From: a virus
Direction: 5' to 3' (one strand)
DNA length: 27,689 nt
Virus record (IMG/VR): IMGVR_UViG_3300020195_000138
Span: 1-27,689 of that record
The position numbers and the translations under genes are program-made. Below are positions 2,444-27,689 of the stretch, piece after piece. The notes beneath the pieces are model-generated. The model was not told the origin of the DNA, ran no database searches, and worked only from the letters and a program-made list of their open reading frames with translations. Position 1 is the stretch's first letter; each line of letters starts with the position of its first letter.

Positions 2444-3928
2444 TCAACCACGCTGAACTCCTTTCAGTCGCATCGTTGCCAGTTCAGCGAATTGCGCCGA
2501 CTTCTCGATTCCGATGTATCGACGACCGTTTTGGATCGCCGCAACGCCCGTAGTTCCCGAGCCGTTGAAGGGATCGATGATGAGATCACCGGGATCCGAT
2601 GCGCATAAAACGATCGGAGTCAGCAATTTCAACGGGAGTTGCGTTGGAAAATCTGGCACCCGTTCATTGCACGTCCCTGTAAGCCGAGGGATTGGTGGAT
2701 CAATACCCCAAATGTTGTCCCACAATTTTCCCGTTTCAGCGGCACGTTTGTCGGCATATTTGGTTTGACGGTCTGAGAGACGTGAAACCGCATCCTCGTG
2801 GAAAACGAAGTTGTTAGGATCTCGAACGCAATAAAAAATGTGGCGGGAGCAGCGATTGAAGTTGCGAGAACAATTAACCCCAAAGGACTCGAACCATTTG
2901 ATCCACGATCGAACCGTTAATCCGAGACGTTTGAGCGTAACGCTGTACTCGGCTGCATACTCGTCTCCAATGAGAATCCACATCGATCCATCGTCGGTCA
3001 GCATATCCCGGCAGCCGACCAGCCATTGTTCGACCCATGCCATATACTGATCGTCAGGCAGCAAATCCGCTGACTTTCCGCCGCCATAGTTGACTCCAAT
3101 GTTGTACGGCGGGTCGGCGAAGATAAGACGGGCGCGATCTTTGACCATTGGCAAAAGCTCCACGCAGTCGCCGGTTCGAATCTCCCAGTTGCCGTCGTTG
3201 CTCAAAACGTCCTGCGCCCGCGTTTTCAGTTCTTCGCGTTTTTGACGCCGGCGCAGTTCTTGTTTAACTTGCGGGATGGTCCGTGCGCCCGTTTTTACTT
3301 GATCGAGCAATTCCGGAGCTTCATTGCGGATTTTTTTGGCATCTTGAACATAGCGTGCGCTTGCTCCGAATTGGTGAGCCACCGTTTCGCGTGCTTTTTG
3401 GCTGACCGTAGTCGGTTGGACGACTTCATGAGTTTTGCATTTCGAAGAAATTGAACCTTGAGGAAAAATTTCCTTATCATTCGATTCGATTGAAGGTTGT
3501 TCTATTGAACCCTGTGGCAATCTTGCCACAGGGTTCATACGAGGGCGTCGTACCTCACCCGATTTATGACCACCTTTTATTGCCGCTTCGTTCATCCTCT
3601 TATGAGCTTCAATTTCAGCTATTTCCATCTCATCCGCTTGAACCGCGACAGCGGCGCGCTGACTTGCGCTAAGATGACGTCGCCGCAGATTTTGTGAAAT
3701 AACGTATTGCGTAATTGAACCATTCCCATTCCAGGGCTTAAATTTAGGCTCAATTTTCAATTCGCAACAAGCGTTGTAACGATGGCGACCGTCGATGATT
3801 TGCCCGTTGTGCAAAACAATCGGCTCGAGCTGACCATTGGCAGCGATATCCGCAACGAGCGATCGATACTCTTCCTCCACCATGCTCGGGAACAATGTGG
3901 CGGCTTCATGCAAAGGAATTATTTCCAT
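2444..3928 (-). CDS. ParB-like domain fused to DNA methyltransferase
   Basis: A 494-residue fusion. Residues 1-110 are a ParB/Srx-type N-terminal domain (IDGRHR at 45-50, then a helical stretch ending QNLRRRHLSASQRAA). Residues 170-230 resemble the helical DNA-binding part of phage ParB-like proteins. Residues 247-494 are an amino-methyltransferase: catalytic DPPY (272-275) precedes the AdoMet-binding DPFNGSGTTG (452-461), which is the beta-class order. It should methylate adenine N6 or cytosine N4; the target site cannot be read from sequence. I chose ATG at 3928 over the upstream GTG at 3937 because the GTG lies inside the AAGGTG ribosome site six bases before the ATG. The linker (130-165) contains two PQGSI copies and a perfect DNA inverted repeat. 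No restriction enzyme is adjacent, so self-protection or anti-restriction is the likely role. Confidence 0.9.
   Translation of the reverse strand: MEIIPLHEAATLFPSMVEEEYRSLVADIAANGQLEPIVLHNGQIIDGRHRYNACCELKIEPKFKPWNGNGSITQYVISQNLRRRHLSASQRAAVAVQADEMEIAEIEAHKRMNEAAIKGGHKSGEVRRPRMNPVARLPQGSIEQPSIESNDKEIFPQGSISSKCKTHEVVQPTTVSQKARETVAHQFGASARYVQDAKKIRNEAPELLDQVKTGARTIPQVKQELRRRQKREELKTRAQDVLSNDGNWEIRTGDCVELLPMVKDRARLIFADPPYNIGVNYGGGKSADLLPDDQYMAWVEQWLVGCRDMLTDDGSMWILIGDEYAAEYSVTLKRLGLTVRSWIKWFESFGVNCSRNFNRCSRHIFYCVRDPNNFVFHEDAVSRLSDRQTKYADKRAAETGKLWDNIWGIDPPIPRLTGTCNERVPDFPTQLPLKLLTPIVLCASDPGDLIIDPFNGSGTTGVAAIQNGRRYIGIEKSAQFAELATMRLKGVQRG
3506..3537. repeat. Perfect 15-bp inverted repeat inside a CDS
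   Basis: Two perfectly complementary 15-base arms (3506-3520 and 3523-3537) separated by two bases, within the ParB-methyltransferase gene. On the coding strand it encodes MNPVARLPQG in the inter-domain linker. A second GGTTCAAT copy about 55 bases downstream on the coding strand encodes the repeated PQGSI. The hairpin could form in mRNA or act as an operator. Confidence 0.85.
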
Positions 3929-4018
3929 TCGAAACACCTTTCAATCCTAAGTTCATAAAAATTCAAAATATGGAGAGTACGAAGACTGATTTTCAGCTTC
4001 TATCAACCGTAGGTTGAT

Positions 4019-9815: not shown

Positions 9816-11153
9816 ATGGCAAGTCTCTTCAAGAAAAAGATCATGGTTTGCAATCCAAAGACCGGTAAAAAAGTACCGTCTTGGTCGCGGAAGTGGTGGG
9901 GCCAATATCGCGACGAAAATAAGAAGCTTCGTCGCAAGCCTCTCGCACAAGACAAAGCAGCTGCGACCGCCATGCTACAAAAACTGGTTCGCAAAGTCGA
10001 ACTGCGAGTTGCGGGGGTCACCGATTGTTTCGACGACCATCGGGCAATACCGCTGGCCAAGCATATCGACGAATTTATCGAGTACTTACACAACAAAGGG
10101 AATATTAAAACCTATGTCTCCCGTACGCAACAGATGCTGCGAGATATCGTCGATGCATGCAAGTTCACCATGATGACGCAGATCAGTGCAAGTGCTGTGC
10201 AAAGTTTTTTAGGTAGCTTGCGTAACGATGGTTATTCGGTCAACAGTGTAAATCACTACCTTCGGGCTGCAAAAATGTTCTCGCGATGGCTGTTCCGCGA
10301 TCATCGCAATCAAGAAGATCGCTTGATGCACCTTCGAGTCCAGAATCCCGAGACCGACCGGCGCCGCATACGTCGGCCACTATCGACGGAAGAATTAAGT
10401 TGGTTACTCCTGGCGACGCAACGCGCCCGATCGAATCAAGGGATCTCCGGATCGGACCGCGTAATACTTTATATCTTGGCTTGTTACACGGGCTTCCGAA
10501 GAAACGAACTCGGTTCGATCACCGAGAGATCGTTCAATTTTGAATCGAAACCGCCACAACTGACTGTAGCCGCATCTTTTTCCAAGCGACGTAAAAACGA
10601 CGTGATTCCGCTGCGATCAGATTTGGCGGAGCGCATCCAAGGATGGCTTGCGTTGCGAACCGATCGTGACGACAAACTGCCACTGATTGGTATCTCGAAC
10701 AAGCGAACTGGCGAGATGTTGAAAAGAGACTTGGCGTTCGCTAGAAAGTTATGGCTGGCCGAAATCACGGACGAACAACTACGAAAGAAAGCCGAGGCTA
10801 GTTCATTCCTATGTTTCATCGATGTGAACGGTCGGTATGCTGATTTCCATGCATTGCGAAAGACCTTCATCACCAATCTTTCCAAATCCGGCGTCTCTCC
10901 GAAGATGGCTCAGAGCCTTGCTCGCCATTCCGACATCAACTTAACGATGAACGTCTACACCGACGTCGTACTCGAAGACCAAGCCATTGCCGTTGAGTCG
11001 CTGCCGCAGCTCCCTCCGGCAACGCCGCTGCCACCACCGCCACCGGTGCAAGAGCCTGGCATCTATAAACATCTTGCCAAGATGCGAGCCCAAGCCGAAC
11101 GTCGTGTGTCCAGTAAGAAGCGATTAGAAGAACAGTTGAAAAAATCGGGTTAA
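9816..11153 (+). CDS. int: Tyrosine recombinase / phage integrase 1
   Basis: A 445-residue integrase. The N-terminal about 60 residues are basic and arm-binding-like. A SAM-like core-binding domain spans about 78-165, and the catalytic domain follows: R228 in TGFRRNEL, K in FSKRRKNDVIPL (254-266), H345xxR348 in DFHALRKT, H371 in LARHSD and the nucleophile Y381 in MNVYTD. All catalytic residues are present. Residues about 399-418 are proline-rich and the tail is a basic coiled stretch. AAGGA lies nine bases upstream of the ATG. It is the last gene of the sigma-like/AlpA/int set. Its attachment site is not identified; it is not adjacent to the tRNA fragment, which lies next to integrase 2. Confidence 0.94.
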   Translation: MASLFKKKIMVCNPKTGKKVPSWSRKWWGQYRDENKKLRRKPLAQDKAAATAMLQKLVRKVELRVAGVTDCFDDHRAIPLAKHIDEFIEYLHNKGNIKTYVSRTQQMLRDIVDACKFTMMTQISASAVQSFLGSLRNDGYSVNSVNHYLRAAKMFSRWLFRDHRNQEDRLMHLRVQNPETDRRRIRRPLSTEELSWLLLATQRARSNQGISGSDRVILYILACYTGFRRNELGSITERSFNFESKPPQLTVAASFSKRRKNDVIPLRSDLAERIQGWLALRTDRDDKLPLIGISNKRTGEMLKRDLAFARKLWLAEITDEQLRKKAEASSFLCFIDVNGRYADFHALRKTFITNLSKSGVSPKMAQSLARHSDINLTMNVYTDVVLEDQAIAVESLPQLPPATPLPPPPPVQEPGIYKHLAKMRAQAERRVSSKKRLEEQLKKSG

Positions 11154-12960: not shown

Positions 12961-14001
12961 TTATTGTTGGGTCGCGAGTTGCCAATCTTCGGGCGTGACT
13001 TGGGCGTAGTGCTTGGCTGCGACCGCTGGGCTGTTGCCGATCCAGAGGCATGCTGTCGTTATTCCGAATCTGAGGATCAACTCCGTTTCGCGAGTCGCTC
13101 GCATCGAATGCCATAGCGATGGCCAGCTAGGAATCGATTGCATTTTGAGTAGTCGCTTGAACCGTGACGTGATTCCGCTTGGAGACAACTCGAGCAATTG
13201 CGATTTGTGAAGCTCGAACGGTAAAGGAAGATACCTGCGAAGCTCAGGAAAAATAGGGATCTCGCGAATCGAATGTCGCTTGGCGTCGTTGATCCGAATC
13301 CGCTCGCGACGAATGTCGCTCGGCACGATTGGATAAAGTTCGCTCGGAATTCGAATCCCACCCCAGCGAGACAGAGCGACCACGGCGCGAAGATCCGCGT
13401 CGCTACATCCCGCGAGTACTCGATGGACCAAATCCGCTTCAACGAATGGCTTATCGGCAACGCCTACTGTAGTCGAGAAGTCGGCGGCTGGGTTCTCTGC
13501 GATGTAACGCTTCGTCACGCACCATTCGAAAAACTGCTTCCAATGCTTTGCGATTTTAGCTTTAGTGGAATCGCAGATGCTTAACCCGTCATGTATCGAT
13601 CGCAACGCTTCGCTGTCGACAGACTGGACTAGCGAATGCCCAAACGCGTCGATGATCGCGTCAAGACTGTTGACAATTGTCAACAGCGAACTCTGCTCGA
13701 CGCTTCGCGATTTCTCATCGACGAATTCATCGACGGCAACGCCAGCGGTTTTGAATAGCCCCATTATCGGAGCTAGCTTGGATCGCAAGTCCGGCGACGC
13801 TCGATCCAGCCAATTTTGCGTTTGTCGTGGAACCGGAAGATCAGACGTTTGCGATTCTAAGAGTTGCTCGACGTGAGCACGCGTAGCATTAGCGTCGGCC
13901 TCACCAATCCTGCCGAGCCATATCGATCGACGGCCGGCCGCAGTGTACACCCTCAGACGGAATCCAGTACGCGAGCCAGTTTCGTAGGTAAGCGAGGACA
14001 T
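12961..14001 (-). CDS. int: Tyrosine recombinase / phage integrase 2
   Basis: A 346-residue integrase lying beside the tRNA-Leu fragment. The N-terminus (TGFRLRVYTAAGRRSIWLGRI) resembles the beta-rich arm-binding domain of planctomycete phage integrases. The catalytic domain shows R217 (WGGIRIPSE), K241, H298xxR301 (LWHSMRAT) and nucleophile Y332 (KHYAQVT). The second box-II histidine is N323 in WIGNSPAVAAKHY, a substitution I have seen in this integrase group. There is no clear ribosome site before the ATG. Proximity to the tRNA remnant makes it the likely enzyme for that attachment site. Confidence 0.92.
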   Translation of the reverse strand: MSSLTYETGSRTGFRLRVYTAAGRRSIWLGRIGEADANATRAHVEQLLESQTSDLPVPRQTQNWLDRASPDLRSKLAPIMGLFKTAGVAVDEFVDEKSRSVEQSSLLTIVNSLDAIIDAFGHSLVQSVDSEALRSIHDGLSICDSTKAKIAKHWKQFFEWCVTKRYIAENPAADFSTTVGVADKPFVEADLVHRVLAGCSDADLRAVVALSRWGGIRIPSELYPIVPSDIRRERIRINDAKRHSIREIPIFPELRRYLPLPFELHKSQLLELSPSGITSRFKRLLKMQSIPSWPSLWHSMRATRETELILRFGITTACLWIGNSPAVAAKHYAQVTPEDWQLATQQ

Positions 14002-17122: not shown

Positions 17123-17541
17123 ATGCGATCCTGTCGATCCTGCTCACGATAGCCGTTGCAACGTCGGCACCAGGCCGCGTCGCCGAGTCGGTCGACATGA
17201 TCGAGCTCAATCATTTCCACGACATCCTCGGTCGACACGTTTACGACCAGGTCATTTTCTACGAGTGGTCGCAAACGCATCGCGAGTATCACGTACGGGC
17301 CTGGGCACTGATCGACGAACGTGACAGTGAAACCCGATGGCCGACCAAGAATTACGCATCGAGCCGTTGGCATGTCCGCTGGCACGATCGCGATCAAAAC
17401 TTTGCTCGCGATCTATCGTCGGCCTGGCTCCGCGAAAGCTGGACGCAAGCCGATCCCGAACGCGTCAACAAAGCTTTGCTACCAGAAAAACTCAGGCATG
17501 CATTAGTGAAACGCCATACTCCCCGGACACCTACTGAATGA
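17119..17541 (+). CDS. Secreted phage-associated protein of unknown function
   Basis: A 140-residue protein. The first 19 residues (MNAILSILLTIAVATSAPG) form a likely signal peptide. The mature part is rich in Trp, His and Arg: IELNHFHDILGRHVYDQVIFYEWS, then WHVRWHDRDQNFARDL and RESWTQADPE. I recognise the pattern from planctomycete prophages but know no function. The start overlaps the upstream stop and the stop overlaps the portal start (both ATGA), so it is tightly coupled to the head genes. Confidence 0.68.
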   Translation: MNAILSILLTIAVATSAPGRVAESVDMIELNHFHDILGRHVYDQVIFYEWSQTHREYHVRAWALIDERDSETRWPTKNYASSRWHVRWHDRDQNFARDLSSAWLRESWTQADPERVNKALLPEKLRHALVKRHTPRTPTE

Positions 17542-19394
17542 TGGCACTACTCGACCAATACGGACAGCCGATCGATACGCGAGCTCTTGCAGCTCAGCGT
17601 AAGCTATCGCAGCGAGTCCAGCGTGCCGACTCGCTCAACGCTGCCTACGACGCAGCCCAAGACACGGTCGAGAACCGCAAGCACTGGCAATGGGCCGACG
17701 GCCGCAGCGCCGCCGCCGCCAATTCGATCGAAGTTCGAAAGCGACTGCGACAACGCGCCCGCTACGAATGCCTTGAAGCCAATTCGTTCGGCAAAGGTAT
17801 CTGCCTAACGCTTAGCAACGACACAATCGCGACCGGTCCATCGCTGCAATGCACGCTCGCCGATGCTGCCCAGTCCCGCGCGATCGAGCAAGCCTGGCGC
17901 AAGTGGTGCAAAGCAACACGCCTGGCGTCGAAGCTTCGCACAGCACGACTCTCGAAGATCATCGACGGCGAAGTCGTGCTGCTCAAGACCACCAACCGCT
18001 CGCTCCGAACTCCCGTACAGCTCGACATCCGACTCATCGAAGCCGACCAACTCGCCACGCCTGGCTTCTTCGACGGGCAAGTCAACAAAGTCGACGGCAT
18101 CGAGTTCGACGACCACGGCAACGCGATAAACTATCACATTCTCAAAGGCCATCCTGGCGATATTTGGCCCATCAACGCTTGGGAAAAAGACGACGTCCAC
18201 CCTGACGATTTGATCCACATGTTCCGCCGCGAGCGACCTGGTCAAGTCCGCGGCATCCCTGAAATCACACCAGCCTTGCCGCTCTTTGCTTTGCTCCGTC
18301 GATTCACACTGGCCGTGATCAGTGCCTCCGAGTTTGCTGCCGATTTCTCGGCCATCCTGCAAACGCAATCCAACGCGTTCGGCAGTGAAGACGGCGGCGT
18401 CGATGACATCGACCCATTCGATAGCGTCCAGATCGATCGCGGCATGATGGTCTCTCTGCCCAAGGGCTGGCAGATGAATCAATTCAAAGCCGAGCAGCCG
18501 ACGACGACCTACGAAATGTTCCGCAACGCGATACTGAATGAGATTGCCCGTTGCGTCCACATGCCATCCAACAAAGCCCTCGCCGACTCATCGAAGTACA
18601 ATTATTCGTCGGGCCGACTCGATCACCAAACCTACTACGAAGCGATCGCCATCGAGCGCAACGAATGGGAAATCGACTGCCTCGATCGCGTCTTTGAATG
18701 GTGGCTCGACGAGGCACTCATGATCGACGGCTATCTCAACGTCGACACCGTCGACGAGATCCCGCACGTCTGGCGATGGCCACCGAACAAGGACGTTGAT
18801 CCTGGTTCCGACGCCGACGCTTCGATTTCATTGATCACCGCTGGTTTGATGTCTGAGGAGCAATACCTGATTGCCAAGGACATCGACCCCGAATCGCACT
18901 ACGCACAGATCGCAGCCCAGTCCGACCGTAAAAAACCTCTCGACTCCACCACAGACATCCAAACGACGGCGTTGAACGGCGCACAAACAACCGCGATCGT
19001 TGATGTTGTCGCAAAAGTTGTGACCGGTGAACTGCCAAAGGAATCCGCGAAGGTGATTATCGCCGTCGCAAACCCAGCGATCGACGCGGCGACTATTGCA
19101 AGCATGATCGATCCAATCGAGCAATCTGGTGCGATACCCGCAAGTAATGGGACGCCGGGGAGCAACGCCCCTTTGCAAGCAGACACTCCCGCCCCGACCT
19201 CCGAGTTCGCCAACGTCTCACGCCGGCAGCTCCAGCGAAACACGAAAGCCATCGACGACGCATTTCAAAAACTCTCGACTGGCGAATGGACCGAGGCCCG
19301 CGCCCGCGTCCATCTATCCTCCGTCGGCATGACCGATCGAACCATCGACAACCTACTCTCCGAAGTCACACAGACCGCGGGAACCAATGAATGA
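17538..19394 (+). CDS. Phage portal protein, lambda gpB family
   Basis: A 618-residue portal, the dodecameric ring through which DNA enters and leaves the capsid. Lambda-family marks: HWQWADGRSAAAANSIEVRKRLRQRARYE near the N-terminus, then IATGPSLQC, RLIEADQL, IHMFRRERPGQVRGIPEITPAL, and later ARCVHMPSNKALADSSKYNYSSGRLDHQTY. The last about 130 residues are an extension with a Pro/Ala-rich linker and a helical end (RQLQRNTKAIDDAFQKL). Start and stop both overlap neighbours as ATGA. No terminase gene lies upstream in the window, which is unusual for a portal. Confidence 0.92.
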   Translation: MMALLDQYGQPIDTRALAAQRKLSQRVQRADSLNAAYDAAQDTVENRKHWQWADGRSAAAANSIEVRKRLRQRARYECLEANSFGKGICLTLSNDTIATGPSLQCTLADAAQSRAIEQAWRKWCKATRLASKLRTARLSKIIDGEVVLLKTTNRSLRTPVQLDIRLIEADQLATPGFFDGQVNKVDGIEFDDHGNAINYHILKGHPGDIWPINAWEKDDVHPDDLIHMFRRERPGQVRGIPEITPALPLFALLRRFTLAVISASEFAADFSAILQTQSNAFGSEDGGVDDIDPFDSVQIDRGMMVSLPKGWQMNQFKAEQPTTTYEMFRNAILNEIARCVHMPSNKALADSSKYNYSSGRLDHQTYYEAIAIERNEWEIDCLDRVFEWWLDEALMIDGYLNVDTVDEIPHVWRWPPNKDVDPGSDADASISLITAGLMSEEQYLIAKDIDPESHYAQIAAQSDRKKPLDSTTDIQTTALNGAQTTAIVDVVAKVVTGELPKESAKVIIAVANPAIDAATIASMIDPIEQSGAIPASNGTPGSNAPLQADTPAPTSEFANVSRRQLQRNTKAIDDAFQKLSTGEWTEARARVHLSSVGMTDRTIDNLLSEVTQTAGTNE

Positions 19395-20233
19395 TTTCAC
19401 AAGCAAGCAAGCAAGCAAGCAAGCGCAAATTGCGTGCCATTCCATCGCCGGTAACTTGGTTTGGCGGAAAAGGACAGCAGTGGCATTGGATCGTAAAACA
19501 TTTCCCCGAACATACGACCTACGTTGAACCGTTCGGCGGTGGCGCGAGCGTCCTGCTTAACAAGCCACCGGTGAAAGTCGAGGTATACAACGATCTCGAT
19601 AGTCGGCTCATCGATTTATTTTCAGTCCTTCGAAACCCGCAACAATCAGAAGCATTATCCGAACAGCTCGCCTTAACGCCGTTTAGCGAACTCGAATACT
19701 ATCGAGCGTGCGACGAACCGATGCCCATCGAGCCAATCGAACGAGCGCGTCGCACATTCGTTATGTTTCGATTTTGCTTCGGTGGAACCGGAACACGTGG
19801 CACAAAAACAGGCTTTTCGTATGGCAAGGTCCAATCCAATGCCACGAAAACCCGCAATGCGATCGATGCACTGCCAACCGTAATAGATCGACTTCGCAAC
19901 GTTCAAATCATGAGTCGCGATGCGGTCGATGTCATACGGACATTTGACACTGAAAACACACTGCATTATTGCGATCCGCCGTACGCATTGTCGGCAAGAT
20001 CAAAGTCAAACGACTACATGCACGACATGACCGACGCAGATCAAGAACGAATTGCGGAGACGCTCAATTCCGTCAAGGGAAAAGCAGTCGTGTCTGGCTA
20101 TCCGTCCCCCTTATACGAACGACTTTACGCCGGATGGCGAACGGTCGAACGAACCGTCGGATTATCCTGCGCACGACACTTGCCCAACAAACCACGCCAG
20201 CAACGTACCGAATTGCTTTGGATGAACTTTTAA
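19391..20233 (+). CDS. Dam-family adenine-N6 DNA methyltransferase with repeat tract at its start
   Basis: A 280-residue D12-class methyltransferase: FGGKGQ (24-29) and YVEPFGGGASVLL (44-56) bind AdoMet, and DPPYALS (195-201) is the catalytic motif IV. Expected product is N6-methyladenine; the site may be GATC as in other Dam enzymes, but this is not readable. Codons 4-12 are built from six AAGC copies, so gain or loss of one unit would shift the frame. The ATG overlaps the portal stop. A TTG at 19430, before the first motif, is a possible alternative start beyond the repeat. It is a morphogenesis-cluster insertion (moron-like), and the window's second methyltransferase. Confidence 0.9.
   Translation: MISQASKQASKRKLRAIPSPVTWFGGKGQQWHWIVKHFPEHTTYVEPFGGGASVLLNKPPVKVEVYNDLDSRLIDLFSVLRNPQQSEALSEQLALTPFSELEYYRACDEPMPIEPIERARRTFVMFRFCFGGTGTRGTKTGFSYGKVQSNATKTRNAIDALPTVIDRLRNVQIMSRDAVDVIRTFDTENTLHYCDPPYALSARSKSNDYMHDMTDADQERIAETLNSVKGKAVVSGYPSPLYERLYAGWRTVERTVGLSCARHLPNKPRQQRTELLWMNF
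19401..19424 (+). repeat. (AAGC)6 tetranucleotide tract in the methyltransferase reading frame
   Basis: Six perfect AAGC units (24 bases) directly follow the fourth codon region of the Dam-type gene. Tracts of this kind change length by slipped-strand mispairing and switch genes on and off in phase-variable methyltransferases of Haemophilus and Neisseria. Confidence 0.9.
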
Positions 20234-20250
20234 CCAATTGAATACCAACC

Positions 20251-20613
20251 ATGGCCAGTGAAATCACCGTCGCAGCATCGATCACCGTGCGCAATGGCAA
20301 CATGATCGAAAGCATCGCACCCGGTCAAAAGCTCATCGATCAAGCAGCCGTTGGCGGCCCATCGCCTGGCTACGTCACGATCGCAACGACCGAGGAAAAC
20401 GTCACGTTCCCCGAGATCAGTTCGCTCGGCTGGCTGTTCCTACAGAATCTCGACGCCACCAACTACATCGAATGGGGATTCTCGGCCACGGTATACGGTG
20501 GCCAATTGTTACCGGGCGAGTACGGGCTGTTTCGACTGAAGCCCGGCGTCTCGCTTTTTATGAAAGCCAACGTCGCAGCCTGCAAAGCAATCGTCAAAGC
20601 TTTCGAGGCCTAG
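20251..20613 (+). CDS. Phage structural protein, probably head-associated
   Basis: A 120-residue protein, predicted mostly beta: ITVAASITVRNGNMIESIAPGQ, then GWLFLQNLDATNYIEWG and GLFRLKPGVSLFMKA. Such small beta-rich proteins occur in planctomycete prophage head-tail clusters and could be decoration or head-completion proteins; no function is established that I know of. The gene is 17 bases after the methyltransferase and 59 before the capsid fusion. No strong ribosome site is seen. Confidence 0.62.
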   Translation: MASEITVAASITVRNGNMIESIAPGQKLIDQAAVGGPSPGYVTIATTEENVTFPEISSLGWLFLQNLDATNYIEWGFSATVYGGQLLPGEYGLFRLKPGVSLFMKANVAACKAIVKAFEA

Positions 20614-20672: not shown

Positions 20673-22967
20673 ATGAAGGATCGACAGCTACGAGCCAAGA
20701 AGGCTCTGCGTCAGAAGCGAAAGCGAATCGACGCACGGAAAAATGCTTGGCTGCACGCTGCCATGGCAAAGCAGGATCTCCTGCGATGCTACGGCGAGCC
20801 TCTGTCGTTGCGTGCGGACAATGCCGTTGGAAGTATTCCGTCATTTGACGGAGTTGCCTACAGCGGTGGCCTGATGACGCCGAATCTCGCCATAGCATGG
20901 AGAGGACCGGTTGTTGTTGATCTCGCTGGTTTGATTAGCGAATCAGTGATCCCAGTGCATCGTGACCACGATGAAACGCGACCAGTTGCTCACACGACGT
21001 CCGTAGTCAACGACGGAAGTCGGCTGGTTTGTTCCGGTGCTTTTTCGATCGATTCGAAAGATGCCCAAGAAGTCCTATCGGGTGCTCGCAATGGTTTTCC
21101 ATGGCGACCATCCGTAGGACTCAAGATGATCAAGACAGTCACGCTTGCCGCTGGGCAACGAGCCACTGTCAACGGCCGCGAGTTCCTTGGCCCCCTCCTC
21201 GTCGTCCGCGAATCCATCCTCAAAGAACTATCCGTAGTCACCATCCCGGGCGATGGCGATTCAGACCTCACTATCAGTGCCTCGCAAGGAAGCGAATCCA
21301 TGTTGTTCGAAGATTATGTCAAGTCGTTAGGTCTCGATCCAGCCACACTCACACCTGAGGCTACGGCTGCATTGCAATGCGCATTCGACGAATCGCAAGA
21401 GACCGCCCCTGATGTTGCTGCCGCAGCTCCGGCACCCTCGGCCGAAGCATCCGACGCATCGGACAAGCCTGCCCCTGCCGAAGATCCCGCCAAAGCCACC
21501 GCGTCCGGCTCGCGCTCTGTCGACCTCACCGCCACGACTGCCGACATCGCTCGCATCACCCGCGAAACGATGGCCAGCGAAACCCTACGAGCCAACAGCG
21601 TTCGCGACTTGTGCGCCCGCTTCTCCAATCCAACGATCCTAGTCAACGGCAAGCCCGTCGATCTCGCAGCCCACGCCATCCAGCATGGCTGGAAAGCTGA
21701 CCAAGTTGAGCTGCATGCTCGACGCCATTCCGACCTCGAAGCCGCTCGCGATCGCCGACCCAGTGGACCAGCAATCCACAGCGTCAACCGAAGCGAACGC
21801 AACTCGCTCCAAGCCCTCCAAGCCGGTATGCTTCTCCGCGCCGGTTGCGCCCTCGATAGCCCAGCCTTCAATCACGCTCGCGTTCGAGCTCGATTGCCTG
21901 GCTGGCTACAAGCTGGCGTCAATGATCCCGCTCGACAGCGAGCTATGGACGCAGGCCACGCCCACTCGGAACTATCCCTCGTCGACGCCTGCCGCATGGC
22001 CCTGCAAGCCAACGGCCACGACGTACCATCCAATCGCAACGATATGCTCCACGCATCGTTCTCGACGGGTTCGACGTCGGCTCTATTTGGTGCCACGATC
22101 GGCGCTCGAATGCTGTTGAGCTACGCCGAGATTCAAGACTTTTCCGAAGGCTGGTGCCAAGAAGAAGAAAACCCAGACCTCGAGCAACACAATCGGAACC
22201 AGACCGAAGCCGCGCAGAATCTCGCCTACCATCCTGTCGGAGGCGAAGCGGCTCACACTGGTCTGACCGTCACGACCGAAAAGGCCCAAGTCCAACGCTT
22301 CACGCGTCAGATGGAAATCGACGAAGCCGACTTCTTATCCGACAACTTTGGTAAGTTCAAAGACACGCCGAAAATGTTTGGACTGGCTGCCGGTCGCGTC
22401 CGACCCAACCTTGTCGCCGCCGTCATCATGGGCAACCCGACGTTGCTCAAGACTGGCCGAGCATTGTTTAACACGACCGACGGCAACGCGGCCACGGGTG
22501 CCGCTCTCGCCCGAGCAACCCTATCGGCTGCGATCGCTCGCATCGCACGCCGCATGGACGGCGACGCATCGATCAATCTCAACTCGACGCATCTGCTTGT
22601 TCCACCTGAGTTGATGGACACCGCAGTCCAGCTCACTAAGTCCGGGTTGCTCAGCAACGATTCCGGATCCGGTGAATTGAATCCGCTCAAGCAATACAAC
22701 ATCACTCCCGTGATGGAACCACGCTTAGCCAACGGACTCACGCATCCGGTCACTGGCGTCGCGATCGCAGGCTCGACCGTCACGTACTACCTGGTTTCGA
22801 AAGAAGCCAACACGATCGAAGTCACCTATCTGACCGGTGCCGGTCGAGTACCCGTCGTGCGAACGACCGACCTAGTCAACGGCAAATTCGGACTCAACGT
22901 CGACGTCCGGCACTATGTCGGAGCTGCACCAATGGATTGGCGTGGATTCGATCGAAGCATCGGCTAG
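20673..22967 (+). CDS. Prohead protease - major capsid protein fusion
   Basis: A 764-residue fusion. Residues about 1-205 are an HK97/U35-type prohead protease: H99 in IPVHRDHDETRPVAH and S187 in LKELSVVTIPGDG are the likely catalytic pair. Residues about 240-282 are an Ala/Pro/Ser-rich linker. Residues about 290-764 are an HK97-fold capsid: STHLLVPPELMDTAVQL, NPLKQYNITPVMEP, and the C-terminal YLVSKEANTIEVTYLTGAGRVPVV with APMDWRGFD. Fusions like this are known and release the capsid domain by self-cleavage; the middle region (about 300-450) probably acts as scaffold. ATG 20673 is the first start; the ribosome site is not strong. Confidence 0.9.
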   Translation: MKDRQLRAKKALRQKRKRIDARKNAWLHAAMAKQDLLRCYGEPLSLRADNAVGSIPSFDGVAYSGGLMTPNLAIAWRGPVVVDLAGLISESVIPVHRDHDETRPVAHTTSVVNDGSRLVCSGAFSIDSKDAQEVLSGARNGFPWRPSVGLKMIKTVTLAAGQRATVNGREFLGPLLVVRESILKELSVVTIPGDGDSDLTISASQGSESMLFEDYVKSLGLDPATLTPEATAALQCAFDESQETAPDVAAAAPAPSAEASDASDKPAPAEDPAKATASGSRSVDLTATTADIARITRETMASETLRANSVRDLCARFSNPTILVNGKPVDLAAHAIQHGWKADQVELHARRHSDLEAARDRRPSGPAIHSVNRSERNSLQALQAGMLLRAGCALDSPAFNHARVRARLPGWLQAGVNDPARQRAMDAGHAHSELSLVDACRMALQANGHDVPSNRNDMLHASFSTGSTSALFGATIGARMLLSYAEIQDFSEGWCQEEENPDLEQHNRNQTEAAQNLAYHPVGGEAAHTGLTVTTEKAQVQRFTRQMEIDEADFLSDNFGKFKDTPKMFGLAAGRVRPNLVAAVIMGNPTLLKTGRALFNTTDGNAATGAALARATLSAAIARIARRMDGDASINLNSTHLLVPPELMDTAVQLTKSGLLSNDSGSGELNPLKQYNITPVMEPRLANGLTHPVTGVAIAGSTVTYYLVSKEANTIEVTYLTGAGRVPVVRTTDLVNGKFGLNVDVRHYVGAAPMDWRGFDRSIG

Positions 22968-24041: not shown

Positions 24042-24105
24042 TTCCCCTTATTCCCATTCCTCCCATGATTTGATGGGAATGATGAGAAGAATGGGAATGA
24101 TAGGA
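24041..24105. repeat. Intergenic hairpin repeat, copy 1
   Basis: ATTCCCATTC (24051-24060) pairs perfectly with GAATGGGAAT (24090-24099), with an inner CCCAT/ATGGG stem. Positions 24077-24098 are an exact 22-base repeat of 25538-25559. The words are close to the TTCCCCA-type heptamers at the right end of the window. The hairpin lies between two tail-cluster genes and may stop or process the transcript. Confidence 0.75.
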
Positions 24106-25470: not shown

Positions 25471-25498
25471 CGATTTTGGTCTTTGTCTTGGTATTTTC

Positions 25499-25563
25499 AT
25501 TCTTCCCATTAGTCCCATTCTTCCCATAGTTTCCATAGGAATGATGAGAAGAATGGGAAGAAT
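25499..25563. repeat. Intergenic hairpin repeat, copy 2
   Basis: ATTCTTCCCATT (25499-25510) pairs perfectly with AATGGGAAGAAT (25552-25563). It shares an exact 22-base block with the copy at 24077-24098. It lies between the tail tube gene and the HExxH gene, 14 bases before the latter's ATG. It could act as a terminator or RNA-processing site lowering expression of downstream genes relative to the tube. Confidence 0.78.
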
Positions 25564-27591: not shown

Positions 27592-27689
27592 TTCCCCATT
27601 CCCTATTCCCTATTCCCAATTCCCCATTCCCCATTCCCTATTCCCCATTCCCTATTCCCCATTCCCTATTCCCCATTCCCTATTCCCCA
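27592..27689. repeat. Tandem heptamer array, 14 units
   Basis: Fourteen exact-length heptamers fill 98 bases to the window edge: seven TTCCCCA, six TTCCCTA and one TTCCCAA. From the sixth unit on, TTCCCCA and TTCCCTA alternate strictly, giving a 14-base higher-order period. No reading frame is associated. The array probably continues beyond the window. It resembles the short tandemly repeated heptamers (STRR) described in cyanobacteria. Confidence 0.92.

Follow-up and report, generated by a model that had tools for sequence, protein, structure and literature searches.

A CAAG repeat tract at the start of an accessory phage DNA methyltransferase gene as a candidate phase-variation switch

Phase-variable methylation is a known bacterial trait. 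Phase-variable Mods with tetranucleotide tracts have been described in Haemophilus, Neisseria, and Moraxella (PMC4751487, PMC6902483), and for these type III mod phasevarions the ON/OFF switching by slipped-strand mispairing has been shown experimentally. The phase-variable tetranucleotide tracts of H. influenzae contain at least 5 repeats, most of them at least 15 (PMC4235727). Methyltransferase (MT) genes with comparable tracts also turned up, in the scan described below, in Mu-like prophages of the Pasteurellaceae. Mu keeps mom next to com, and in Haemophilus phage SuMu the MT gene (SuMu_53) directly follows com. SuMu's own copy of this MT lacks a tract, and the SuMu paper makes no mention of phase variation (PMC3447690). 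No paper on repeat-switched (SSR) phage-encoded MTs was found in the open-access library searched, which is incomplete and lacks most subscription papers.

The DNA analysed here (the window), a virus record from IMG/VR, is 27,689 bases long; its relevant features are collected in Table 1. The gene at issue is assigned to the D12 class (MethyltransfD12/Dam family) of adenine-N6 MTs. Its product matches PF02086 in a profile search (E value 1e-25; 91.4 bits, cut-off 22), phrog_56 (E value 3.3e-71) and, by phmmer, the DpnM structure 2dpm (E value 1e-12), and the segments WFGGK (motif X-like), VEPFGGG (motif I), and DPPY (motif IV) are kept across an alignment with nine homologs. The initial annotation called the enzyme Dam-type. 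This is supported for the D12 class, to which PF02086, phrog_56, and DpnM all point, but not for the Dam subfamily that acts on GATC: the NCBIfam dam model TIGR00571 gives 84.9 bits, below its cut-off of 114.85, and the observed/expected ratio of GATC in the window is 1.01, neither enriched nor depleted and therefore uninformative on specificity. Since the score falls below the curated cut-off of this stricter model, GATC specificity is not claimed.

Table 1. Features of the methyltransferase locus, other relevant genes of the window, and repeat-bearing acyltransferase loci.
Feature	Position	Strand	Remarks
Tyrosine integrase	9816-11153		profile search
Second MT, N6_N4 domain	2444-3937	-	profile search
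Portal protein (Phage_portal_2)	17538..19394	+	upstream, overlaps MT start
Second ATG, four bases upstream of the first	19387..19389	+	in frame with MT at 5, 8, 11 units
ATG start of MT	19391..19393	+	in frame at 3, 6, 9 units; ATGA overlap with portal stop codon
D12/Dam-like adenine-N6 DNA methyltransferase, 280 aa, phrog_56	19391..20233	+	FGGK, EPFGGGA, DPPY motifs conserved
(CAAG)6.25 tetranucleotide tract	19400..19424	+	encodes Gln-Ala-Ser-Lys whichever frame
TTG, five bases past tract	19430..19432	+	in frame at any unit number; aligned with homolog starts
Small protein ORF	20251..20613	+	L003 homolog 70% identical, directly after portal there
Capsid/head maturation protease fusion	20673..22967	+	downstream of small ORF
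OafA-like acyltransferase loci with short ATG leader, then (CAAG)8-15	L336, L335, L343, L352		bins G037 and G160

As initially annotated, the MT gene lies between the portal and capsid genes, with one small ORF intervening. This MT is absent from the position in all 56 related portal loci, and L003, the closest relative (portal 74% identical), shows the empty site: there the homolog of the small gene begins 5 bases after the portal gene. By these comparisons the MT is an accessory gene inserted in the portal-capsid slot. The commonest other cargo of this slot in related phages is a tyrosine-recombinase-like gene. A gene of this kind is also present elsewhere in the window (12961-14001, minus strand), its homologs in the slot of related phages being 43-57% identical, which makes it a mobile slot gene. 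A further relative, L094, carries an N6_N4 MT directly after the portal gene (L094:4089-4829, plus strand), so that the slot takes up MT genes repeatedly; this gene shares with the window MT its position in a related phage but belongs to another family and has no tract. The closest relative of the window MT itself (L219, 51%) comes from a planctomycete MAG, sits between the terminase and portal genes, and is also devoid of a tract. No close relative in which this MT has a different number of units was found, nor any relative carrying this MT with a tract, and searches with exact flank patterns for a second allele gave no match, or only unrelated shared sequence.

Of 392 Planctomycetota genomes sampled, 41 contain portal homologs, which supports the planctomycete host that had been proposed from the sequence; a portal scan of a separate genome-contig collection gave no match. 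Because an integrase gene is present, the phage is probably temperate. CAAG tracts of at least 21 bases occur in five of the 392 Planctomycetota genomes. Two bins sampled as Planctomycetota (G037 and G160) contain several OafA-like acyltransferase genes whose ATG is closely followed by a (CAAG)8-15 tract; these are probable phase-variable surface genes of the phylum, although the bins may be contaminated, and with that same caveat they make CAAG switching plausible in the host phylum.

The tract consists of six perfect CAAG units plus one base and can alternatively be read as AAGC x6 (19401-19424). Counted from ATG 19391, it occupies codons 4-12 of a 280-codon ORF. The initial description of six perfect units within the first dozen codons of an intact MT gene is accurate, the tract being exact and the ORF uninterrupted. 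The window has no other tetranucleotide tract of at least three units, and even four units with one mismatch appeared in none of 100 dinucleotide shuffles. Likewise, no tetranucleotide tract of at least four units is found in a set of 262 loci that was collected without a tract query; it comprises related portal loci together with MT loci and genomes that bear an MT, and amounts to 1,984,766 bases. The locus thus shows two properties by which SSR phase-variable genes are recognised: a repeat unit that is not a multiple of three in or before the coding region, and a length beyond chance, as judged by the shuffles and the related loci. The tract also occupies a place in the gene at which such switches are typically found. 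Repeats of other kinds are also present in the window. Its end (27592-27689) lies inside a 7/14-base tandem array, (TTCCCTATTCCCCA)x7, and shorter 9-base repeats occur at 24071-24105 and 25494-25536.

Two staggered ATGs precede the tract, and the layout would constitute a three-state switch in which the MT starts at ATG 19391, at ATG 19387 or at neither. In the proposed mechanism, the MT would move in or out of frame as CAAG units are added or removed downstream of the start codons and ahead of the catalytic domain. The sequenced state has six units, and translation of the MT would here begin at ATG 19391, probably by translational coupling, since this ATG overlaps the portal stop codon; ATG 19387 then opens a peptide of 46 codons. 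With five units the MT would be read from ATG 19387. By frame arithmetic, neither ATG reaches the MT frame at 4, 7 or 10 units, and loss of two units or gain of one would leave TTG 19430 as the only start, at best a weak one. The claim that one slip closes the frame therefore applies to the gain of a unit, which leaves no ATG, but not to the loss of one, which brings ATG 19387 into frame. The position of ATG 19387 is where L003 starts its next gene, and this suggests an insertion of the MT directly after a pre-existing start.

The strongest support comes from other phages. A gene-blind scan of IMG/VR for at least five CAAG units yielded 68 stretches with 66 tract-associated ORFs, 19 of which belong to phrog_56, the PHROG of the window MT. 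These 19 are D12-like MTs of prophages like SuMu (94.9% identity in the case of L064). Their tract lies just ahead of the first conserved motif, F-x-GQK, as that of the window lies just ahead of WFGGK, and many of them have candidate start codons only upstream of the tract. Two pairs of loci differ in unit number within nearly invariant surroundings: L038 has 8 units and L046 has 20, with 600 of 600 flanking bases identical on both sides, and L040 has 11 units and L066 has 10, in different frames, with the downstream 600 bases identical. Identical flanks with differing unit numbers are direct evidence, read from the sequences, that CAAG tracts in phage MT genes slip. An extreme case is L041 (4-1533, minus strand), where a tract of 166 units (666 bases) starts a D12-like MT in a prophage with the frame kept. 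Descent of the window MT from the tract-bearing Pasteurellaceae MTs was considered and ruled out, the similarity being marginal (BLAST E values of 0.1 or worse). It follows from this marginal similarity that the arrangement arose separately, the parallel being one of convergence and not of descent.

Other DNA-modification genes among the 66 CAAG ORFs are four HsdS, two N6_N4 MTs, and one Mom. In a control scan with GAAC, the CAAG unit reversed and of the same composition, the 54 ORFs found include four C5 MTs, two N6_N4 MTs, and one Mom. Among 124 random ORFs from the same contigs none matched the MT seeds, and one HsdM is present among the 25 of 76 Pfam matches listed. The raw CAAG counts are inflated because related prophages recur; the 66 ORFs form 33 clusters, four or five of which are DNA-modification families. 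With counts that are not dereplicated, the trend is nevertheless clear that phage CAAG and GAAC tracts, as found in these sequences, repeatedly fall in genes for DNA modification (D12, C5, and N6/N4 MTs, HsdS, Mom). An N6_N4 MT (L045:6191-7375) and a Mom (L068:934-1647) have nearly the same leader and CAAG tract followed by different genes, which suggests that modification genes may be exchanged at the tract. Tetranucleotide tracts are also found in unrelated phage genes. The PAPS-reductase-like phage proteins L030, L032, L051, and L365, which form one cluster, have CAAG or GAAC tracts within the gene as well.

Phase variation of the window MT is likely, albeit unproven, and we consider it somewhat probable that the tract, known from one allele, acts as a slipped-strand switch on this accessory gene. 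This reading has to be weighed against constitutive production of the MT from TTG 19430, in which the tract would be part of the leader and changes in unit number would not affect the protein. The initial annotation placed the next in-frame ATG far downstream, but the next in-frame start is this TTG, only five bases beyond the tract, as that annotation itself recognised when it named translation from there as what would refute the proposal. In a MAFFT alignment, Leu14, encoded by TTG 19430, lines up with the initiator Met of three homologs (L131, L134, and L136); among 168 MT loci, the nearest ATG or GTG most often lies 12-13 codons from the GGK motif, and for TTG 19430 this distance is 12 codons; and the 13 residues encoded ahead of it have no clear homologs. 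Because homologs begin at this position, the tract-encoded residues are a non-homologous extension and the TTG start is a serious rival. The MT of L219 likewise lacks an in-frame ATG and offers TTG starts only. However, ATG 19391 on the portal stop codon is a classic ATGA coupling arrangement, whereas TTG 19430 lies 36 bases past that stop; the start codons taken for the other plus-strand genes of the window are ATG in all but two; and several tract-bearing D12 MTs, having no start codon just after the tract, must start upstream of it. On balance we regard a constitutive TTG start as unlikely, if worth serious attention. Shine-Dalgarno sequences mark neither ATG 19391 nor ATG 19387 nor TTG 19430, and they were dropped as a discriminator since most morphogenesis genes of the window lack one. 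The morphogenesis genes at 20251, 20673, 23019, 24118, and 24487 of the window start right after ACC (ACC-ATG or ACC-TTG) with no well-placed Shine-Dalgarno sequence, and ACC before the start is possibly a start context of these phages.

The MT could also be translated through a tract that is a neutral expansion, encoding an ordinary Gln-Ala-Ser-Lys linker and slipping too rarely to matter. The small number of units, the single known allele, and the tracts of unrelated phage genes agree with this, and slippage may indeed be slow, since six units are at the short end of the H. influenzae range. Such tracts are, however, very rare in related phages (none in the 1.98 Mb mentioned above), and the present tract is no more than 12 codons from the start of an MT, a position at which the tracts of other phages recur, so that we find neutrality rather improbable. 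Finally, the unit number of the contig might be an assembly or sequencing error, since short repeats are known to mislead assembly, and the contig does end inside another tandem array; yet the length of a read far exceeds the 25 bases of the tract, and the frame given by six units stays open for 280 codons, so that an artefact seems very improbable.

If the tract is a slipped-strand switch, a phage population would contain MT-making and non-making genomes, and its virions or lysogens would differ in methylation, the most likely use of which is protection against restriction by the host. For this particular tract we infer a useful slippage rate, a start upstream of the tract, and a benefit to the phage. 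The interpretation is plausible, and better supported than could be known when it was initially put forward, because the same design demonstrably slips in the MTs of other phages. As regards a wider view, we give an even chance to the idea that phages of unrelated hosts have independently placed modification genes (D12, C5, and N6/N4 MTs, HsdS, Mom) under tetranucleotide switches, betting on methylated and unmethylated genomes at once, and that the planctomycete phage is one case of this, with two staggered ATGs and three states instead of two. If repeat-switched modification genes do belong to the phages themselves, the virions of a clonal stock would differ in their modification, which would change the understanding of escape from restriction. 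The recurrence of tracts in phage DNA-modification genes provides a candidate list in cultivable Pasteurellaceae phages.

Compared with known systems, the window MT shares the catalytic domain, the motifs, and a length of about 260-280 aa with phage orphan Dam/D12 MTs (DpnM- and T4 Dam-like), but the homologs fetched from this group have no repeat tract at their start. With the type III mod phasevarions it has in common that the gene encodes an adenine MT and has a tetranucleotide tract close to its start. In those, however, switching is an experimental fact and not, as here, a proposal from sequence, and the switched gene is a host Mod, usually with many more units, instead of a phage orphan D12 MT with six. 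The SuMu_53 family of MTs from Mu-like Pasteurellaceae prophages (L009-L071) resembles it in being phage-borne, in belonging to phrog_56, in the CAAG unit, and in having the tract immediately ahead of the first conserved motif. Unlike the window, this family has tracts that reach 166 units and visibly change in length, and its MTs are too distant for direct kinship. Repeat-driven phase variation of MTs being already known, the novelty of the window system would be that it is phage-encoded and possibly three-state.
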